Shown in pieces: positions 36,656 to 45,363 of a stretch of 64,000 nucleotides of DNA (the first letter of the stretch is position 1; each line of letters opens with the position of its first letter). The position numbers were made by a program, and so were the translations under genes. This DNA is from Candidatus Kuenenia stuttgartensis (lineage in GTDB: Bacteria > Planctomycetota > Planctomycetia > Gemmatales > Gemmataceae), in NCBI GenBank assembly GCA_945875585.1, contig CAMCLK010000027.1, forward strand, positions 1 through 64,000, written 5' to 3'. Below the pieces are notes generated by a model. It saw only the letters and a program-made list of their open reading frames with translations. It ran no database searches and was not told the origin of the DNA.

Positions 36656-37486
36656 TTATTTGAGCCTTGGCTGCAAACTACGCGCCTGCGCAATCTTTTC
36701 GTCGATGGCTTCCGCCTCGGAGGGATCGTTCAGCCGCATTCGAGCCGATTTCAAGTCGGTATCGGCACCTGTGGAGTCGCCCAAGCACAATCGCGTGTAC
36801 CCTCTATTGGCCCGATAGTAAAAAGGTTCAGGTGGGGCGGTGCGTGCCGTGGCCAAACGAATCGCTTCCGTGAATTCCGCTTCGGCACGTTGAAAATCAG
36901 ACCGTTTCAGGGTGCGCTCTGCTTCTACCAAAAAAGTCAAACCGCGGTATTCGCGGCATTCGGCATGGTTGGGGCGCGCTTCAATCAAACGATCAAGTTC
37001 GCGGCGCACCTCGCCAAAATTCTGCCGCATGGCTTTTTCGGTATCGGTATCTAGGTGCATAAGCTCAAGAAATGTGGTCAACTCAACGTCGGAATCCAGC
37101 GCTTGACCAATATTCCTTTTTCCCAAAGCTGGATCGCCCATTTCATGGGCTGCTAAACCGCGTACATAGAGTGCCAGTACCCAGTCTGGGCGCTCACGCA
37201 ACATGGCATCGAGGTCGTTGACCGCCAGAGAAGGTTCACCCATTTTCACATAAGCAGTCGCCACACCTAAACGCGCCTCAGCATTTCCCGGCTGACGAGC
37301 CAAAACTTCAGCCCACTGACGACGAGCATTAGGGTGGTCGCCCCTTCGGGCCAAAAGGCGGGCATTCTTGACAGGATCAGCTTCTGTTACGGGCTGGGTT
37401 GCTTCGGCAACGGGCTGGCGACGTGAGCATCCTGACTCAAACAGTAAGGCGAGCATCAGCCCGGGAATAATTGGATGAACATTCAT
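36656..37486 (-). CDS. TPR-repeat lipoprotein
   Basis: 276 residues. The N-terminus is a lipoprotein-like signal (PGLMLALLFESGC, Cys20), though Glu at -3 is unusual in a lipobox. TPR units follow: ARRQWAEVLARQPGNAEARLGVATAYVKMG, WVLALYVRGLAAHEMGDPAL, RAEAEFTEAIRLA and FYYRANRGYTRLCLGDS each carry the Ala/Gly/Tyr spacing of TPR helices. No enzyme domain is seen, so a scaffolding role in the envelope is inferred. It lies 44 bases upstream of the phosphomutase start on the same strand, so the two may be cotranscribed. Confidence 0.82.
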   Translation of the reverse strand: MNVHPIIPGLMLALLFESGCSRRQPVAEATQPVTEADPVKNARLLARRGDHPNARRQWAEVLARQPGNAEARLGVATAYVKMGEPSLAVNDLDAMLRERPDWVLALYVRGLAAHEMGDPALGKRNIGQALDSDVELTTFLELMHLDTDTEKAMRQNFGEVRRELDRLIEARPNHAECREYRGLTFLVEAERTLKRSDFQRAEAEFTEAIRLATARTAPPEPFYYRANRGYTRLCLGDSTGADTDLKSARMRLNDPSEAEAIDEKIAQARSLQPRLK

Positions 37487-37650
37487 GGATAGCCCTCGCA
37501 GTACCCCGGATGGTGGGGATCATGGGCTTCGCTATGCCATGTGGAAGCTACCAGCGCAAGGATGGAGTTGATTGGTGGGGTTGTGCCGTCATAATCGGAC
37601 CGTTGTTTCAAAGAATTGTGATTAAGGTTAATCCTTCACTAGATTGACCA
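37487..37650. other. Intergenic region upstream of the repeat-protein gene
   Basis: About 340 bases separate the TPR lipoprotein start from the repeat-protein start. Apart from the promoter at 37651-37678 I see no gene or strong hairpin. The part nearest 37487 should carry the lipoprotein gene's promoter, but no boxes stand out. Confidence 0.35.
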
Positions 37651-37678
37651 TTGACATGCAGTTTGCCCTGATTAACAT
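37651..37678 (+). promoter_or_regulatory. Sigma70-like promoter of the repeat-protein gene
   Basis: A perfect TTGACA (37651-37656), a 16-base spacer and TAACAT (37673-37678). It would give a 5' leader of about 140 bases before ATG 37824, long enough for post-transcriptional control. Confidence 0.4.
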
Positions 37679-37823
37679 TAGTCCTTAGCAATCTCATCTT
37701 TTCCTTCTTGCCCTGATGCTTGAGGAGGGAAAGCGATTCGTCGGGAAACCGCGAGCCGTTCCAACGACGTAACAGGGCAGGTGTGGTTGCTGTATTTTGA
37801 CGTAACCTCCGGAGTTTACACCC

Positions 37824-38438
37824 ATGTTTAGCGCAGTATTGATGATGGCTCTTTCTTCTGGCAGCCAGTCCCCCGACTTCTTCTTCAAGAAGAAGAAGGC
37901 TGCTGAGTGCACCGAGTGCGCAACCGTAGAAGTCGTAGCAACTGGCAAGGGCCAGGATGCAGGCAAGGGTCAGGCTGCTGCCAAGGGCCAGGACGCTGCT
38001 AAGGGCCAGGCTGCTGCCAAGGGCCAGGACGCTGCTAAGGGTCAGGCTGCTGCCAAGGGCCAGGACGCTGCTAAGGGTCAGGCTGCTGCCAAGGGCCAGG
38101 ACGCTGCTAAGGGTCAGGCTGCTGCCAAGGGCCAAGACGCTGCTAAGGGTCAGGCTGCTGCCAAGGGCCAGGACGCTGCTAAGGGTCAGGCTGCTGCCAA
38201 GGGCCAGGACGCTGCTAAGGGTCAGGCTGCTGCCAAGGGCCAAGACGCTGCTAAGGGCCAGGCTGCTGCCAAGGGCCAGGACGCTGCTAAGGGCCAGGCT
38301 GCTGCAAAGGGCCAGGACGCAGGCAAGGGTCAGGACGCTGGCAAGCCACAGGCTGCTAAGGGTCAGGACGCAGGCAAGGGCCAGGCTGCTAAGGCTCAGG
38401 CCGCACCAGCAGCTAAGGCTGCAGACGCCAAGAAGTAA
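37824..38438 (+). CDS. Low-complexity Lys/Gly/Gln/Ala repeat protein
   Basis: 204 residues; GGAG lies 9 bases before the ATG. The N-terminal 40 residues are unique: a short hydrophobic start, then DFFFKKKKAAECTECATVEVV. Residues 48-167 are ten copies of the 12-mer KGQAAAKGQDAA (the last ends in G), flanked by variant KGQDAG units, and the tail ends AKAADAKK. Charge is positive (two Lys, one Asp per repeat). Composition recalls histone H1-like or LEA-like disordered proteins, but no family is recognised. The plus-strand frame is judged real because it has a ribosome binding site, an upstream promoter and its own terminator. Role unknown; nucleic-acid binding or desiccation/cell-surface roles are guesses. 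Confidence 0.8.
   Translation: MFSAVLMMALSSGSQSPDFFFKKKKAAECTECATVEVVATGKGQDAGKGQAAAKGQDAAKGQAAAKGQDAAKGQAAAKGQDAAKGQAAAKGQDAAKGQAAAKGQDAAKGQAAAKGQDAAKGQAAAKGQDAAKGQAAAKGQDAAKGQAAAKGQDAAKGQAAAKGQDAGKGQDAGKPQAAKGQDAGKGQAAKAQAAPAAKAADAKK
37965..38324 (+). repeat. Ten tandem 36-bp repeats
   Basis: 360 bases made of ten head-to-tail 36-base units within the coding sequence at 37824. The units differ mainly at synonymous positions (AAGGGT/AAGGGC, CAGGAC/CAAGAC). The near identity indicates recent expansion by slippage or unequal exchange, held in frame. Confidence 0.92.
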
Positions 38439-38460
38439 TCCAACGTTCAACGTTTGATTC

Positions 38461-38504
38461 AAGATCCGGGTCAGCCGATAGGCGGACCCGGATCTTCTTT
38501 TTTT
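38461..38504 (+). terminator. Rho-independent terminator
   Basis: A 12-bp perfect stem (38461-38472 with 38485-38496), a 12-base loop, then C and seven T's (38498-38504). It starts 22 bases after the stop of the repeat-protein gene. Its position just before the next plus-strand gene implies separate expression of the two. Confidence 0.93.
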
Positions 38505-38551
38505 GCTAGATCAATGTGATGGTGTTTGCTGACAGGGCATTCAGGTGGACC

Positions 38552-40750
38552 ATGCGTTATGCCTTTGCCATGCTTGTGGCGTTATCCGCGTTTCTCCTTT
38601 TCGTAATTCAACCGGCTGCTGGCAAGCGCCTATTGGTTGTCATGGGAGGCACCCCGTCTGTTTGGACAACTGTCTTGGTGTTTTTTCAAGTAGTTGTTGT
38701 GGCGGGGTATGGCCTGTCACTCGTGCTTGCGCAATGGCGGAATAGTGTTGGTGCGGCGCTTGTTCCCATTGGTCTTGTTGCGGCGGGTTTTCTGGTGCGC
38801 GGCGGTATGCCGCTCGGAGAGTTGCAACCGCCCCCTTCCAGCCAAGTTTCAAATTCACCCGTGTTCTGGATTCTTTTAGAGCTTTGTCGAGATATCGGTT
38901 GCGCCGTCGTTGCCATTGCTACCACATCGACTTTGCTTCAGGTTTGGTTTACGCGTCGTGAGGGGGGGCGAGACCCCGTATGGCTTTATGCCGCCAGTAA
39001 TGCTGGTAGCCTTGGCGCGTTGGTGATCTATGTGATAGGTGTGGAACCGTTCATGGCCTTGGAATCCCAAGGCAGGTGGTGGCACTACGGCTTGCTTCTT
39101 TGGGCGGGTTGGCTGCTTGCTGTTGCATTTACTGTGGCCAACAAAGCGCCTGAAAGCGACGAATTGGTCAAGTCGCCTTCAGAACCGGCGCCAACTCGAA
39201 TCAAACATTGGGAATGGTTGTTTCTTGGGGCTGTGCCGAGCTTTTTTCTCATGGCATCCACGCGCCATCTGGTTACCGATGTGGCACCGATTCCCATGCT
39301 CGGATTAATGCCTTTGGCCCTGTTTTTGATAGCTTATATTCTGGCGTTTAGTTTGCCTTGTCTCCGGATTTTGTTGAGTCTTCAGGTGTTGGCTTCCATC
39401 GCGCTGATGCTTGTGGAATCGATGGGTGCCACCGATACGCGGATGGGCGGAGCCGCCTTGGTGATTTTCATCCATCTGGCTGGATTTTTTCTAGTCACAT
39501 GGGCAGCCTTGACAGGTCAAGCAGCCAGTCGCCCTGCCAATTCATATTTGGCCCGTTTTTACCTCACTACCGCCATAGGGGGCGCCCTTGGAGGTTTGGC
39601 CCAAGCAGTCGTGGCCCCGGTGGTGTTTCGATTTGTTGGTGATTGGGATTATCCATTGGGGCTTGCAGCCATGGCATTTGCCCGCCCTGTTGGTTGGCAA
39701 TGGGCCGGGTGGCGTCACTTAGCCATTGGCTTGGCATGCGGATTGTTGTCGATTTCTGTCAGCTTGGCTTGCCCTTGGGAAGCTGGCCCGTGGCGTGATG
39801 GTATTACTCGTGGCTTGCCGTTGGTGGTTGCTTATTGTGTTGTTAGCCGAGCGCCTTCTTGGCCTATCTGTTTGGCATCTATCTTTCTAGTGGGAATCAT
39901 TGTGCCGGCAGATCGGTCTACGACTTTGTTTCTCGAACGAGGCTTTTTTGGAACAACACGGGTATCTCAAGAATACGACGCGCATGGATTGGTGCGGAAG
40001 TTGTATCACGGTACAACCGTGCATGGAATATGCGCCCCCGACCAGACCGACGCGATGGGCCGACCGCTGCCTTTGGCGTATTACCATACCAAAGGACCGG
40101 CCGGCACCACATTTTTGCGTATGTTTCCGAAGGAATCAGCGCCCATGCGGTGTGCTGTTGTGGGCCTTGGTGCTGGGAGTCTGGCATGGTACGCCAGGCC
40201 GAATGATCGATGGATTTTTTATGAAATTGATCCGGTTGTGGTGCGGGCTGCTACCCGTGAGTCGCTCTTCCCATACCTAACGCAATGTCTGGGTGACTGG
40301 TCTATTGTGGAGGCGGATGGCAGAAAGGGACTTGAACTTCATGAGGGCGATCATTTTGATGTGATCGTGATGGATGCCTTCAGTTCCGACAGCATCCCGA
40401 CACATTTGCTCACACGCGAGGCCCTTGCCGCATATCGATCGCGCCTTAAACCAAGCGGAATCATGCTTTTTCATGTGTCTAACAGGTACTTGGATCTGTC
40501 GCCTGTACTGGCTGCATTGGCCCACGATGCCGGTATGTCGGCTTGGCAATGGGCCGACCTGATGGGAAGCAGCGGCAAAGATGAAGTTGGGAAATCACCA
40601 TCAGAGTGGGTGGTGATTTCAGGAAATACAGCCGCATTTAATTCATTTCGTGGCGGATGGAGCAGGCTTCAGCATTCCGAAACCACGCCCATTTGGACCG
40701 ACAGGCACTCTTCGGTGCTGTCGGCATGGCGAACAAGCAGTATCGACTAG
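38552..40750 (+). CDS. Membrane-fused spermidine synthase-like protein
   Basis: 732 residues from ATG 38552 (AGGTGG just upstream); a GTG at 38516 is possible but close to the terminator. The first 450 residues hold about twelve hydrophobic segments (FAMLVALSAFLLFVIQPAAGK near the start). The C-terminal 230 residues are a SAM-binding spermidine-synthase-like domain: FYEIDPVVVRAA, VEADGRKGLELHEGDHFDVI, VMDAFSSDSIPTHLLTREAL, GIMLFHVSNRYL. The DAFSSDSIP segment replaces the polyamine-type catalytic site of SpeE, so aminopropyl transfer is not assured. Such fusions are widespread and mostly uncharacterised. Confidence 0.85.
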   Translation: MRYAFAMLVALSAFLLFVIQPAAGKRLLVVMGGTPSVWTTVLVFFQVVVVAGYGLSLVLAQWRNSVGAALVPIGLVAAGFLVRGGMPLGELQPPPSSQVSNSPVFWILLELCRDIGCAVVAIATTSTLLQVWFTRREGGRDPVWLYAASNAGSLGALVIYVIGVEPFMALESQGRWWHYGLLLWAGWLLAVAFTVANKAPESDELVKSPSEPAPTRIKHWEWLFLGAVPSFFLMASTRHLVTDVAPIPMLGLMPLALFLIAYILAFSLPCLRILLSLQVLASIALMLVESMGATDTRMGGAALVIFIHLAGFFLVTWAALTGQAASRPANSYLARFYLTTAIGGALGGLAQAVVAPVVFRFVGDWDYPLGLAAMAFARPVGWQWAGWRHLAIGLACGLLSISVSLACPWEAGPWRDGITRGLPLVVAYCVVSRAPSWPICLASIFLVGIIVPADRSTTLFLERGFFGTTRVSQEYDAHGLVRKLYHGTTVHGICAPDQTDAMGRPLPLAYYHTKGPAGTTFLRMFPKESAPMRCAVVGLGAGSLAWYARPNDRWIFYEIDPVVVRAATRESLFPYLTQCLGDWSIVEADGRKGLELHEGDHFDVIVMDAFSSDSIPTHLLTREALAAYRSRLKPSGIMLFHVSNRYLDLSPVLAALAHDAGMSAWQWADLMGSSGKDEVGKSPSEWVVISGNTAAFNSFRGGWSRLQHSETTPIWTDRHSSVLSAWRTSSID

Positions 40751-40766
40751 GGCATCCCACGCGGCG

Positions 40767-43148
40767 TCAGGCGATATACCTGCGTTTGCTCAGCAATGTT
40801 GAGGCTGGCGTCACCAACTGGGTCACAGCGAAGTCGTACCTTTGTGCCAATGATGCGATACCCAAGCTCAGTCCAATCCCGCCATTTCTGACCATGCCAC
40901 CGAGTGAACCGATCTTGGCAACACCGGCCTGGTAACCTGTTGGTATGGTCCTAGTAACAAAATAGCTGCCGGAGCGCAGGTTGTCGAATGCGTAGGACCC
41001 ATCGAAAGCAGTAACGGCTTGTCTTCTGACAGCTCTGCCTAAATCATCGTTGCCCGTCAGTGTGATAATGACATTGGCAATTCCAAAATCTCCGGGGTTG
41101 CGGACACCATTGCGGTTCAGATCATTAAACACCACACCGGAAATCCGTGAAGGTGGAACCATGGGGAAGTCGTACCCCACGCCGCTGCCGGAAAGCCCCA
41201 GATTGATCTGCGAGATGGTCGCCATCCCCGCAGATCCACCCACCGAGCCTACAACAGCCCTCGCGATCATAGCGCCAGACACAGACTTTGCTGCAAGCTG
41301 GTAAACACCATCCGGCAATGAAATGAAAGCGTAACGGCCAGCAGCGTTCGTGACCGCCTGTCGCGTGATGGGTTGTCCTGCTGAACTAAGTCCAGTCAAT
41401 GTTACGCGAACTCCTGGCAGCAGCATATCAGAAGCTTGGTAGCGACCATCTGCGTTTCGGTCGAGGAACGCCCTGCCAGTCAGGTTCAATACAACCGAGC
41501 GGCCCAGATTATAATTGTCGCCCAAACTGCCTGATCCGATTGTGATATCGGAAATCGAGTCTGTGCCCGGTGTTCCGCCAAGGTCGCCTGCCTCTGTACC
41601 CGTGGCCGTGAATCCGCCAGCAGCGGGACTGGTTACCTGATATGTTCCTGGCAGGAGGTCAACAAATGTGAAGCCACCATTGGCATCTGTCCGCGTGGTT
41701 TTGGTTGTTGTACCTGAAGGACCATTTCCATTCAAAGTGACTGCCTGATTGGGCAGCCCGGGTTCGCCATTATCGCGCATTCCATTGGAGTTGCGATCAA
41801 GAAAAACAGTACCTGAAAGTGCCGAACCTTCCGATTGAGGCAACAGATATCCGGTTGCATTCTGGCCTGAACCAAGGCGAATGGAGCCGACGGCTACAGG
41901 AGCTGAAATGCCGCCCGCGTCACCAGGCTGTCCGGGCCCTGCCAAGAACTTGGGGAGTAAACCGCTGACAACAGAGTAGTTGCCTGGGCGCAGATCCGTG
42001 AAGGAGAACAGGGCATCGACGCCCACATTGGCGGTGCGCGTGACTTTCGCACCCGTGTCGTCTGTCCCTGTAAGGGTAACCGTGACGCCTTCAGCACCGA
42101 TTTCATCGGTATCGAAAACAGCATCGCCATTGTTATCGATGAATGCAAGTCCTTGAAGCGCTGCTGCTTGTACTTCACCAAAACCCAGCGTCGATATTCC
42201 TGCCTCGGTCAATGTCAGCGGTATTTCATCGGTAAACGCCGATCCGGGAATAGGTGTTATTCCATTGCGAGTTTCAAGGCCATCAAGTGTGCCATCTGGT
42301 TGAGTTGTTTGCCTGACAATGTAATTACCCGGTTTGAGGGCTGTGGATGGGTCGTAGGAATAGCGCACAGTGATATCGGCAGAACCTGTGGTTAGCACGG
42401 AGATCTGGAAGTTTCCAGGGCCCTGTGAAGTTGCTGTTCCAGTGGCTACAGCCTGGTAAACAACCGAACCGGACCCAATGAAATTGGCTAAATCCATTGG
42501 GTCTGTCACATTGGCTGTTTGCGTGATGGATGAAGTTCTCTGTGGAAACGTGATACCGCTAGATCCTGTGAAATTTGTGGTGCCATCGTAGCCGCCAAGC
42601 ACTGCGGTGAAGGTTTGGGTCGTTGAAACGAGTTCAATAGGGCCACCCGGTCCGGTAACCGTCAGGGCGCCATCGTGACTGACGCGGATGGTTGCGGCAT
42701 TACTTTCGAGGTTTTCAACGCTGGCTCGGGCCTCAATTTGTCCATTGACTTCGATATCCACCGCAGTCAAGGTTCCCAAAGCCGGGTTAAAACGGGGAAT
42801 TGTGGCTACCGACCCAGACGACGCTGAAAGGTTTGTCAGCGAAACCGTGTATGAGGCAACCGTCGAAGAGTTGAGCAATCGCCTATCAGAGTCAAAGGAG
42901 AATTGGCCATTGTCATCTGAAATGGCTTCCCCGACAAGAATTCCAACAGGCGTGACAAGCTGCAGGCTGGAAGCGGCGATTCCCGGTTCGTCCGCGTCGC
43001 GGCGTCCATTGCCATTCAGGTCGGAGTATACCGACCCGGCAATAACAGGGTTGGCTGCCGGTGTGTCACGCACTTCAAGCCTTTCGAGGCCTGGTAGCCG
43101 CGTTTTTTTGGTGTTTCCTGCGCGGCTGAAACTGTTTGAATAACCCAT
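40767..43148 (-). CDS. SdrD-type B-repeat surface protein
   Basis: 793 residues; GGAGG lies about 9 bases before the ATG. Residues 21-31 read LERLEVRDTPA, the same N-terminal motif as the protein at 4870. Five SdrD B-like domains follow, each opening with a pattern such as GSVYSDLNGNGRRDADEPG, GTVFLDRNSNGMRDNGEPG or GVVFNDLNRNGVRNPGDFG; the Asp/Asn runs resemble calcium-binding loops. Between the first and second domains, about residues 175-270 resemble a choice-of-anchor E domain (TQTFTAVLGGYDGTTNF). No LPxTG or PEP-CTERM tail is seen. It lies 67 bases downstream of the BBP7 gene on the same strand, so both are probably made together at the cell surface. Confidence 0.9.
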   Translation of the reverse strand: MGYSNSFSRAGNTKKTRLPGLERLEVRDTPAANPVIAGSVYSDLNGNGRRDADEPGIAASSLQLVTPVGILVGEAISDDNGQFSFDSDRRLLNSSTVASYTVSLTNLSASSGSVATIPRFNPALGTLTAVDIEVNGQIEARASVENLESNAATIRVSHDGALTVTGPGGPIELVSTTQTFTAVLGGYDGTTNFTGSSGITFPQRTSSITQTANVTDPMDLANFIGSGSVVYQAVATGTATSQGPGNFQISVLTTGSADITVRYSYDPSTALKPGNYIVRQTTQPDGTLDGLETRNGITPIPGSAFTDEIPLTLTEAGISTLGFGEVQAAALQGLAFIDNNGDAVFDTDEIGAEGVTVTLTGTDDTGAKVTRTANVGVDALFSFTDLRPGNYSVVSGLLPKFLAGPGQPGDAGGISAPVAVGSIRLGSGQNATGYLLPQSEGSALSGTVFLDRNSNGMRDNGEPGLPNQAVTLNGNGPSGTTTKTTRTDANGGFTFVDLLPGTYQVTSPAAGGFTATGTEAGDLGGTPGTDSISDITIGSGSLGDNYNLGRSVVLNLTGRAFLDRNADGRYQASDMLLPGVRVTLTGLSSAGQPITRQAVTNAAGRYAFISLPDGVYQLAAKSVSGAMIARAVVGSVGGSAGMATISQINLGLSGSGVGYDFPMVPPSRISGVVFNDLNRNGVRNPGDFGIANVIITLTGNDDLGRAVRRQAVTAFDGSYAFDNLRSGSYFVTRTIPTGYQAGVAKIGSLGGMVRNGGIGLSLGIASLAQRYDFAVTQLVTPASTLLSKRRYIA

Positions 43149-43215: not shown

Positions 43216-45057
43216 TCAATATCGTAATTCAAGACCCACATTGACGCCTTGCGCCCAAAGGTCGGTGAACTGCACTTGCTGGGCGGGTCGGGCAGGCAAG
43301 GCGCTGCCGCTCGCGGGTGGAATCAAGTTGGGATTGACGGAAGCATCAATCAGGCCGCCCGAGCGCGCCACATTTGTCCAGTAAAGGACATTGTAACCAG
43401 CAAACACTTTCAGTTTTGGAGTGATGTAATAGCCCAAAGTAAGTCCCAGCTCAGGAACGACCGAGAAGTGGTTATCTGTAAACCCTCCAATATTGCTTGA
43501 TTGGGCAAGCAGACCGCCTGGCAGGGTTTGCGAACTGCCGGGCGCATTGATTTGCGTGTATCCGGAAATATCAGCATTAACGTTGGTTTGTCCCAATGCA
43601 ACCTTGACTGTGGTATCGAGAGCCCACCGGCGGTAATTCAGCCCGAAGACCATACCAAGTTGGCCGCCCCAAAATGTGTTTTGGGAACTGAAGCTGTCAT
43701 TGACCCGGAAAGATCCGCCACCTCCACTGGTTTCGCTGAGGATTTCCGTGATGCTCAAATTATCGCGGAGGTTCAGATTGCGAACGCCAGCGAGGCCATC
43801 GATTGTCCAAAAGCAACCTCTGTGGAGTCCAAATTTGGCATTCAGGTCGCCTCCGTAGAATTGTGTTTGATCCTGCACAATGACCGAGCCAGCGAGCCCA
43901 TTTCCGCCATTGAGAGCCGCTGGTACACCGACAAATTCAACCGATTGATTACCAGTGAGCGCGTTGACAAATGGTCGGCCCATCACCGGGTAGCCAGTAG
44001 ATGGATTGCCAAACGACTGAAATGCCGTCTCAGTGCTGTTGCTTCCCAAGCCAAAGAATGTGAATTCTGTGGCAATGTCCTGAGCCCTGTTCCACCACAT
44101 GCCAATTTTGACTCGTCCGCCACTGTTCATTCCGGTGGAAAGATCGCTTCCTTGGCCGCCGTAAAGTGTCTGTGTGCCTGGCTGTCCAAGCGCACCTGAA
44201 TTGGGCGAGGTCAGATTGCTACTTCCTGTAACCAGCACGGGGGTCTGGTTGCCGGTGAGAGCCCAGCTCAGGTATTCGAAAGACGCATAAAACTTATAGC
44301 GGTCCAAATGCGGTTTTAATGGGTCCGAGAATTCGTTGGTTTGGAATGCCGTACCGCGCAGGCTTCGGGCGCGAAGCTGCTGCAACCATGTGCCACCCGT
44401 GGCCATGCCATCACCCGAGTCGATGATGATTTCACCCGGCATGGTCTCGATGACAGTTCCTCCCGGCGCGACAGGGCTTATTCGGCCCTGAGAGCCCGAA
44501 GGACTGGTGATGATGGTGTTTGATGGCGAAACAATTGTTCCCGGCGGAAGACCTCCAAGCCCCGGGGTCACAATGGTTCCTAGCGGGAGTGATTGAATAG
44601 ACTGCTGCGACATGGCTGGTGAAGGCATGGCCATGGGAACAGAACGAGGCATGGGCAGCAGGGTTGGCGCAGCAGCCGCTGCGGGAATAGGCTGTGCCAC
44701 TGGTGGCTGTTGAGCCGATCGAGCCTGGGCATCGCTGACGAACATGGCAACGGGAGATCCGGGTTGGGCGAGAATGCCAACAGGCGGATGTTGCACCAAA
44801 ATCGGACCTGTTGTGGTGTTCATGGCCGTTGGCATGAGGCCTTGGTCAAGCCGAGTCGGTTCAGCCTGAAGCGGTTGCAAAAATGGACCTGACTCACGTT
44901 GTGGCGTTGATACTGCGATAACGCGTGGAGCACCAAGCGAAGCAAAGGGAGGGGCCCCGGGAGTGGTGACAACGGGCACTTGGCCCGAAGCCGATTCCCC
45001 GTGTGCAAGCCAGACAGCCAGGAGTGCAGCTAGGTGACGCTTCCGTGCGTGTGTCAT
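43216..45057 (-). CDS. BBP7 family outer-membrane beta-barrel protein
   Basis: 613 residues from ATG 45057 (GGGAG 7 bases upstream). The longer frame upstream has no signal peptide and no ribosome binding site. A signal peptide (RKRHLAALLAVWLAHGESASG) precedes a Pro/Gln-rich linker to about residue 250. The C-terminal 340 residues match the planctomycetal BBP7 barrel: YKFYASFEYLSWALTGNQTPVLV, GGRVKIGMWWN, FWTIDGLAGVRNLNL and the final VNVGLELRY with an aromatic last residue, as in outer-membrane barrels. Its role is probably a porin or surface anchor. It precedes the SdrD-repeat gene in one unit. Confidence 0.9.
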   Translation of the reverse strand: MTHARKRHLAALLAVWLAHGESASGQVPVVTTPGAPPFASLGAPRVIAVSTPQRESGPFLQPLQAEPTRLDQGLMPTAMNTTTGPILVQHPPVGILAQPGSPVAMFVSDAQARSAQQPPVAQPIPAAAAAPTLLPMPRSVPMAMPSPAMSQQSIQSLPLGTIVTPGLGGLPPGTIVSPSNTIITSPSGSQGRISPVAPGGTVIETMPGEIIIDSGDGMATGGTWLQQLRARSLRGTAFQTNEFSDPLKPHLDRYKFYASFEYLSWALTGNQTPVLVTGSSNLTSPNSGALGQPGTQTLYGGQGSDLSTGMNSGGRVKIGMWWNRAQDIATEFTFFGLGSNSTETAFQSFGNPSTGYPVMGRPFVNALTGNQSVEFVGVPAALNGGNGLAGSVIVQDQTQFYGGDLNAKFGLHRGCFWTIDGLAGVRNLNLRDNLSITEILSETSGGGGSFRVNDSFSSQNTFWGGQLGMVFGLNYRRWALDTTVKVALGQTNVNADISGYTQINAPGSSQTLPGGLLAQSSNIGGFTDNHFSVVPELGLTLGYYITPKLKVFAGYNVLYWTNVARSGGLIDASVNPNLIPPASGSALPARPAQQVQFTDLWAQGVNVGLELRY

Positions 45058-45363
45058 CCTTGATCTCCCAATCAACAAGGTGTGAATTTCAGTGTGCGTA
45101 TCGAAATCAAGGGTTTGGCTTCGTCTGCCATAGCACCAAGGAATCAATTCCACGGGGCCCCAATCATTGGTTCGGAAGACTGGCAGTGTTAGAGCGTGGA
45201 AAACAGAAGCAGGTGAGCCAAGGATTTCCTGTTGGCGTGTCATCTTGAGCACAGAGCGAAATCATGCCACGATTGTTGCGGCTCCCCCAGTTGGGTGTTC
45301 TTGCCCTGTTGCCGCATTTGGCAGAGGTGGCACAACTGGTGTTTTGGGATCGAGGAGAGAGAC
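45058..45363. other. Divergent intergenic region
   Basis: 306 bases between the BBP7 gene (minus) and the PQQ-propeller gene (plus). It must carry both promoters, but I find no pair of boxes with good spacing on either strand, no hairpin with T tract and no RNA gene. GGAG lies 6 bases before ATG 45364. Confidence 0.35.

Follow-up and report, generated by a model that had tools for sequence, protein, structure and literature searches.

The membranes of the Gemmatales are among the most elaborate known in bacteria, and we know of no satisfactory explanation for the sorting of proteins within these membranes. Among the protein classes with which the present case can be compared, hydrophilins are recognised by a Gly content over 6% and a hydrophilicity over 1, and histone-H1-like nucleoid proteins by a strongly cationic tail. 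In planctomycetes, the accessible part of PMC8567305 describes an extracellular signal, PF07595, with the motif RRLxxExLExRxLLA, and Cys-rich YTV-domain proteins of the cell wall. The gene described here lies in a 64-kb window (the whole stretch of DNA that was analysed, 64,000 nucleotides) from a draft genome of 4.66 Mb in 113 contigs that is 93.7% complete, and it codes for a protein in which a hydrophobic N-terminal motif precedes a tail of short repeats. The TIGR03000 domain that often follows this motif is already catalogued. The motif itself, its promoter and the members with K/Q repeats appear to be undescribed: no description of them was found in the literature searched, which is no proof of absence as most subscription journals lay outside the search.

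Orthologs of the gene were found in two congeners, the Planctomycetota isolates REEB421 (G002, L070) and K_Offshore_0m_mx_037 (G001, L071), and in another genus, in ErkenSummer_bin-2955 (G026, L075). The features of the locus are as follows.

36656 to 37486, minus strand: divergent TPR protein, a conserved neighbour (Pfam match; loci of relatives)
37651 to 37678, plus strand: promoter, with -35 TTGACA, a 16-nt spacer and -10 TAACAT (pattern scan; spacing kept upstream of the orthologs)
37685 to 37823, plus strand: 5' leader of 139 nt with a presumed start (conservation in the genus)
37811 to 37814, plus strand: Shine-Dalgarno GGAG (sequence)
37824 to 38438, plus strand: coding sequence, 204 aa (ORF list, sequence, cross-species codon-position changes)
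37824 to 37880, plus strand: Gemmatales N-terminal motif M-Y/F-S-x-V/I-L-M-x-A-L/M-T/S-T/S-G-x-E-x-P-x-F (26-position profile, 41 members)
37878 to 37898, plus strand: aromatic/basic patch FFFKKKK, immediately C-terminal to the N-terminal motif (sequence)
37908 to 37919, plus strand: CTEC, residues 29-32, with the sole two Cys of the protein (sequence; present also in the G001 and G002 orthologs)
37942 to 38401, plus strand: whole tandem array including its degenerate ends (repeat finding: period 36, 12.9 copies, 91% matches)
37965 to 38288, plus strand: nine exact 36-bp units coding for KGQAAAKGQDAA (exact-unit count)
38289 to 38324, plus strand: tenth unit, ending DAG (G in place of the final A)
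38461 to 38504, plus strand: intrinsic terminator, a 12-bp stem (38461-38496) and then a T-run (z = -5.2, 0/200 shuffles as stable)
38516 to 40750, plus strand: fused MFS/spermidine-synthase-like protein, a conserved downstream neighbour (profile matches; loci of relatives)

The plus frame is the coding frame. In three pairwise comparisons within the genus, the changes at plus-frame codon positions 1, 2 and 3 numbered 12/29/67, 15/35/77 and 4/8/29, and this pile-up of between-species changes at position 3 fits plus-frame codons and argues against the rival minus-strand ORF (37608-38462, 284 aa); translation of the minus-strand frame was what the earlier note had named as refuting its reading. 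The plus frame is retained in the three orthologs. The protein runs from an uncharged hydrophobic start through FFFKKKK and CTEC to a tail of KGQ(A/D)A(A/G) hexapeptides, and the KKKK (residues 22-25) and CTEC segments are both in the N-terminal part where they had been reported. The repeats had been called ten identical units of 12 residues. Nine are indeed exact copies of KGQAAAKGQDAA and the tenth is not, as it ends in Gly. The 36-bp units were also said to differ mainly at synonymous sites, and among the nine, which occur in three distinct DNA versions, variation is confined to 2 of the 36 columns, each of them a third codon position. No tandem array is listed elsewhere in the window, and the one other listing overlaps 37942-38401. 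The codon adaptation index, computed with 14 ribosomal ORFs that were assigned by their position beside L2 and by reading their translations, is 0.831 for the whole gene and 0.693 for the first 40 codons, which suggests high expression within the repeats only. Because copied units share their codons, codon bias was discarded as proof of high expression.

The gene had been reported to have a TTGACA promoter of its own, a long leader and a terminator with a 12-bp stem, and all three were found. Across the promoter and leader 117 of 183 columns aligned with G001 are identical (64%) and just upstream 64 of 150 (43%). The leader contains a long predicted hairpin, conserved in the genus, in which AGCAAT..TTGCCCTG pairs with CAGGGCAGG..GTTGCT. 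The stability of this hairpin relative to shuffles is weakly significant (z -1.3, -2.6 and -1.7 in three sequences) and an analysis of covariation would need more than three sequences, so we make no claim that the leader is a regulatory RNA. A search of Rfam with 37500-38600 gave nothing near a gathering score, the best match being CsrC with 14.6 bits vs 61. The stem at 38461-38496 is absent from the listing of a consensus-based terminator scan; hairpins are also present 3' of the orthologs in G001, G002 and G026.

As in the window, the repeat gene in G001 and G026 lies between the divergent TPR gene, with a phosphomannomutase gene behind it, and the MFS/spermidine-synthase-like gene, the TPR and phosphomannomutase genes of the three having been judged homologous by eye. 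In G002 the MFS/spermidine-synthase-like downstream gene is on the contig of the ortholog. When 80 loci of this downstream gene were searched with a regular expression for the motif gene, the repeat gene was upstream in 3. Since only these carry it, the arrangement is conserved in two genera only, and synteny as a family-wide rule was dropped. About 2 kb downstream in the window there is a putative surface cluster, made up of a protein with five SdrD_B domains (40767-43148, minus strand) adjoining a BBP7 beta-barrel protein (43216-45252, minus strand), and similar ORFs are downstream in G001 (L016).

The earlier note had recognised no family and proposed a profile search of the N-terminus. That search was run, and it shows that the N-terminus belongs to a family that spans the order. 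With the first 50 residues of the window protein as query other genera were reached, 10 of 59 genomes giving a match at E 0.1 or better, and the N-terminus alone gave 8.1e-8 in G026 and 1.6e-5 in G010. The family profile has 26 positions and was made from 14 N-termini, the window protein being itself one of its rows, and it gives this protein an E of 1.0e-15. It matches 80 of the 297 genomes of the class, all of them in the order of the window: 80 of 84 in Gemmatales, that is, 74 of 77 in the family of the window and 6 of 7 in a second family, and 0 of 213 class genomes outside the order. Zavarzinella formosa DSM 19928, which is in the family of the window, has five matches, and the profile had no match in Singulisphaera sp. 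GP187 (Isosphaerales) or in a Pirellulaceae genome, which identifies the order as Gemmatales.

The 41 members considered below are the loci that were read, out of well over 100 profile matches listed. L010 (G047, E 0.077, one stop) was left out before this count was made, and L052, with 3 nt upstream only, was scored as a miss for both the Shine-Dalgarno sequence and the promoter. A Shine-Dalgarno sequence precedes 36 of the 41 starts vs 4.2 at random points, and therefore the starts are real. K and R are absent from residues 1-17 in 41/41 members and A9 is invariant; a hydrophobic run of 7-8 residues is present in 39/41, P17 in 33/41, and at least two K/R fall within residues 18-30 in 28/41. 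The motif of the window protein, MFSAVLMMALSSGSQSPDF, has no basic residue and 7-8 consecutive hydrophobic residues. In this protein K and R are missing from residues 1-21, and there is thus no basic n-region ahead of the hydrophobic core.

The members also have a promoter in common. The pattern TTGACN-N15-18-TANNNT is found within 320 nt upstream of 33 of the 41 member starts (shuffles: mean 0.8, maximum 3). Its N16-17 form is upstream of 32/41 members; in the 64-kb window, with both strands counted, it occurs a single time, at the repeat gene (37651-37678), and there are 5 in about 230 kb of flanking DNA (strands summed). In the source genome a narrower pattern gave 15 sites vs 38 for the reversed control, that is, no genome-wide enrichment, and these sites lie ahead of the two motif genes and also of ORFs interpreted as those of bS18, a ribosomal protein, and PlsX. 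The family promoter is therefore taken as a strong housekeeping-type promoter, rather than as a proven private regulon. Shared as it is by the family, it favours strong expression of a housekeeping kind over a special stress response.

The bodies behind the motif are diverse. TIGR03000 (over 43.1 bits) is present in 24 of the 41 members and has no match in the window protein. Most bodies are Cys-rich (GCYGCHGCYG), and a smaller number resemble that of the window protein in being rich in K, Q, A or P; most members that lack TIGR03000 are of one or the other kind. When 30 TIGR03000 loci were read by eye, 24 had the motif N-terminus, 5 had a Sec-like signal, of which that of L184 is the least clear, and 1 was cut off by the contig. 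G025 encodes TIGR03000 proteins of both the motif type and the Sec-like-signal type, and G001 likewise encodes both types of KGQD-repeat protein. The second KGQD-repeat protein (L160:8153-8923 in G001:C2; L037:1237 onward in G002:C128) has a GTG start, a strong Shine-Dalgarno sequence and a signal ending SVSA-AE. A KGQ query of the source genome found no Sec-like-signal KGQD-repeat protein. Since TIGR03000 and KGQD bodies occur behind Sec-like signals, both are consistent with an extracytoplasmic location. It is mainly because the same bodies occur behind either the motif or a Sec-like signal that we read the motif, from sequence comparison, as a probable targeting element.

Two other architectures were seen among these proteins. 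In the second KGQD-repeat protein of G001 and G002, the KGQD blocks alternate with Cys-containing and amphipathic segments, FLDKLKARLGDL. In genus g25 (L012:1501-1893, L025 and L028), the motif N-terminus is followed by repeated blocks such as CCGGREGIMSKLHDKKGCCGGE, with short amphipathic helices between CCGG clusters.

The commonest 12-mer of the tail is KGQAAAKGQDAA in the window and AAKGQDAKKGQD (7 times) in G002, and G001 has several three-fold units. As the three congeners have different dominant units, each close relative has expanded its own unit, and the expansion, which the earlier note had called recent, was thus recent and repeated. Other A/P/G/Q/K units dominate in G026, G104, G100, G099 and G016. 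The sum of A, K, G and Q makes up 0.76-0.90 of the tail in 8/8 K/Q-type members, the dominant 12-mer varying by species. The composition of the tail is therefore conserved while its units turn over, and among close relatives this gene shows a disordered tail holding its composition while the repeat unit is replaced. The disorder had also been suggested before and agrees with AlphaFold2, which finds no fold and predicts the protein to be largely disordered (pLDDT 44.1 alone and 44.5 with three orthologs; a helix at residues 3-9 only). In genus g15, the motif proteins L054 and L055 have K-A-Q-A-A-P repeats after GGELKSKISN..LKDRLSGLKGK, an independent K/Q/A tail.

Based on these findings we propose, giving it about an even chance, that the gene product is a strongly expressed, largely disordered spacer or matrix protein of the envelope or membrane with an order-specific N-terminal targeting motif. 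The hydrophobic motif MFSAVLMMALSSGSQSPDF would send this protein to the envelope or a membrane, or tether it there, and FFFKKKK together with the two cysteines of CTEC may anchor it through lipid contact, a disulfide or metal. The tail of KGQ(A/D)A(A/G) hexapeptides would be a hydrophilic, weakly cationic, flexible bristle or spacer, and if selection acts on its composition and not its sequence, slippage and unequal exchange could freely rebuild the repeat. We infer where the protein is located (membrane or envelope), how strongly it is expressed and what the tail and the Cys pair do.

Simple Sec export is argued against by the position of the basic patch, which in the sequence is C-terminal to the hydrophobic stretch. 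The lack of a basic n-region and the shortness of the hydrophobic run, 7-8 residues, also count against a Sec signal. In addition, Pro, found here at position 17, is a poor residue at a signal-peptidase site. Because the basic residues come after the hydrophobic stretch (28/41 members, with no K/R before it in any of the 41), the tail would stay in the cytoplasm by the positive-inside rule. It is possible, but rather unlikely, that the protein is cytoplasmic and tethered to the membrane, with its hydrophobic N-terminus dipping into either the inner or an intracytoplasmic membrane and its basic patch and tail on the inner side, where they would serve as a crowding agent or as a scaffold for condensates. 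The occurrence of TIGR03000 and KGQD bodies behind Sec-like signals speaks against this, and a reducing cytoplasm would be an unexpected place for Cys-rich members.

To return to the envelope- or membrane-associated spacer with a targeting motif, a further step can be put forward tentatively, namely that the motif is a new Gemmatales-specific sorting signal with a dedicated receptor or translocase, which would deliver co-regulated, hypervariable low-complexity proteins (Cys-rich, TIGR03000 and K/Q-repeat) to the envelope or to intracytoplasmic membranes. The 19-residue motif is near-universal in the order, is not found in sister orders and is tied to one promoter class. As it is exchangeable with Sec-like signals before the same bodies, sorting is directly testable by short fusions. 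If the motif is such a signal, then the repeat gene is a minimal natural reporter, consisting of the motif and a plain disordered tail.

Each hexapeptide has one Gln and one Lys, like the GQDPVK of trappin-2, and a transglutaminase could link such tails into a matrix by isopeptide bonds. Pfam Cementoin (PF10511) scores 44.5 bits in the window protein, over its cut-off of 27, and transglutaminase-like PF01841 proteins are present in 5/5 genomes, with 8 matches in the source genome. However, the orthologs in G001 and G002 score 10.5 and 13.8 bits, below the cut-off, and that in G026 has no match; PF01841 is a broad superfamily also present in 10 of 14 control genomes; and none of the 6 genomes searched has PF20085, the transglutaminase of Bacillus type. 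Moreover, according to the accessible part of PMC3110255, no reactivity with epidermal proteins was found for any Gln or Lys inside the GQDPVK motifs that make up part of the cementoin domain in trappin-2 itself. A cross-linked matrix is thus improbable. The idea of a lysyl oxidase was dropped, as the bacterial clades named in the accessible part of PMC4448552 include no planctomycetes and 'gemmata' there is an ichthyosporean.

The earlier note had favoured a positively charged nucleoid-associated or RNA-condensing factor or a stress-protective (LEA/hydrophilin-like) protein. The disorder and the richness in Lys, Gln, Ala and Gly agree with these roles, but the net charge of the tail is only +0.09 per residue, with D between the K residues, which makes a condensing role weak, and for a stress-protective role the disorder stands whereas the Kyte-Doolittle mean of the whole protein, -0.67, misses the hydrophilin cut-off (hydrophilicity is 1.18 in the G002 ortholog). 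The conserved membrane-type N-terminal motif shared with Cys-rich and TIGR03000 proteins and the housekeeping-type promoter also count against these functions, and we consider them improbable. A family of RiPP-like peptide precursors, with the conserved N-terminus as leader and the variable tail as modified core, would account for a conserved leader before a hypervariable body, and TIGR04114, the Cys-rich repeat model tSAM_targ_Cxxx, is matched at its cut-off by one Cys-rich member, but this is 1 of 41 members where TIGR03000 bodies occur in 24, and among the neighbours scanned no modification enzyme adjoins the gene, which makes such a family most improbable.

How does the proposed spacer protein compare with known systems? 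Many TIGR03000 proteins have the same N-terminal motif and promoter type, an example in the source genome being G000:C12, L002, but the window protein has neither the TIGR03000 domain nor a Cys-rich region and its tail consists of K/Q/A/G repeats. The PF07595 signal and the YTV proteins, as described in the accessible part of PMC8567305, are alike in having a lineage-specific N-terminal motif or Cys-rich bodies, but the motif differs, and neither PF07595 nor YTV is among the Pfam matches of the window protein up to E = 1. With the Cementoin domain of trappin-2/elafin it shares hexapeptide repeats in which each unit has a single G-Q-D and a single K; on the other hand, its repeats are without Pro and Val, its orthologs are not above the cut-off and Pfam finds no WAP domain behind the repeats, and this likeness is most likely convergence. 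The similarity to bacterial collagen-like proteins (SclA/SclB, Lcl) is one of low complexity only, because these have Gly at every third residue and the window tail has Gly at every sixth; Pfam Collagen scores 13.2 bits against a cut-off of 27.2, and the NCBIfam EntC/SclB matches, far below their cut-offs, and the PDB collagen matches were rejected as low-complexity similarity. Like hydrophilins, LEA-like proteins and histone-H1-like bacterial proteins, the window protein is disordered and rich in Gly, Ala and Lys. Its Gly content is 14.7% but its hydrophilicity is 0.67, its net charge is much lower than that of the histone-H1-like proteins, and its hydrophobic N-terminal motif sets it apart from all of these.
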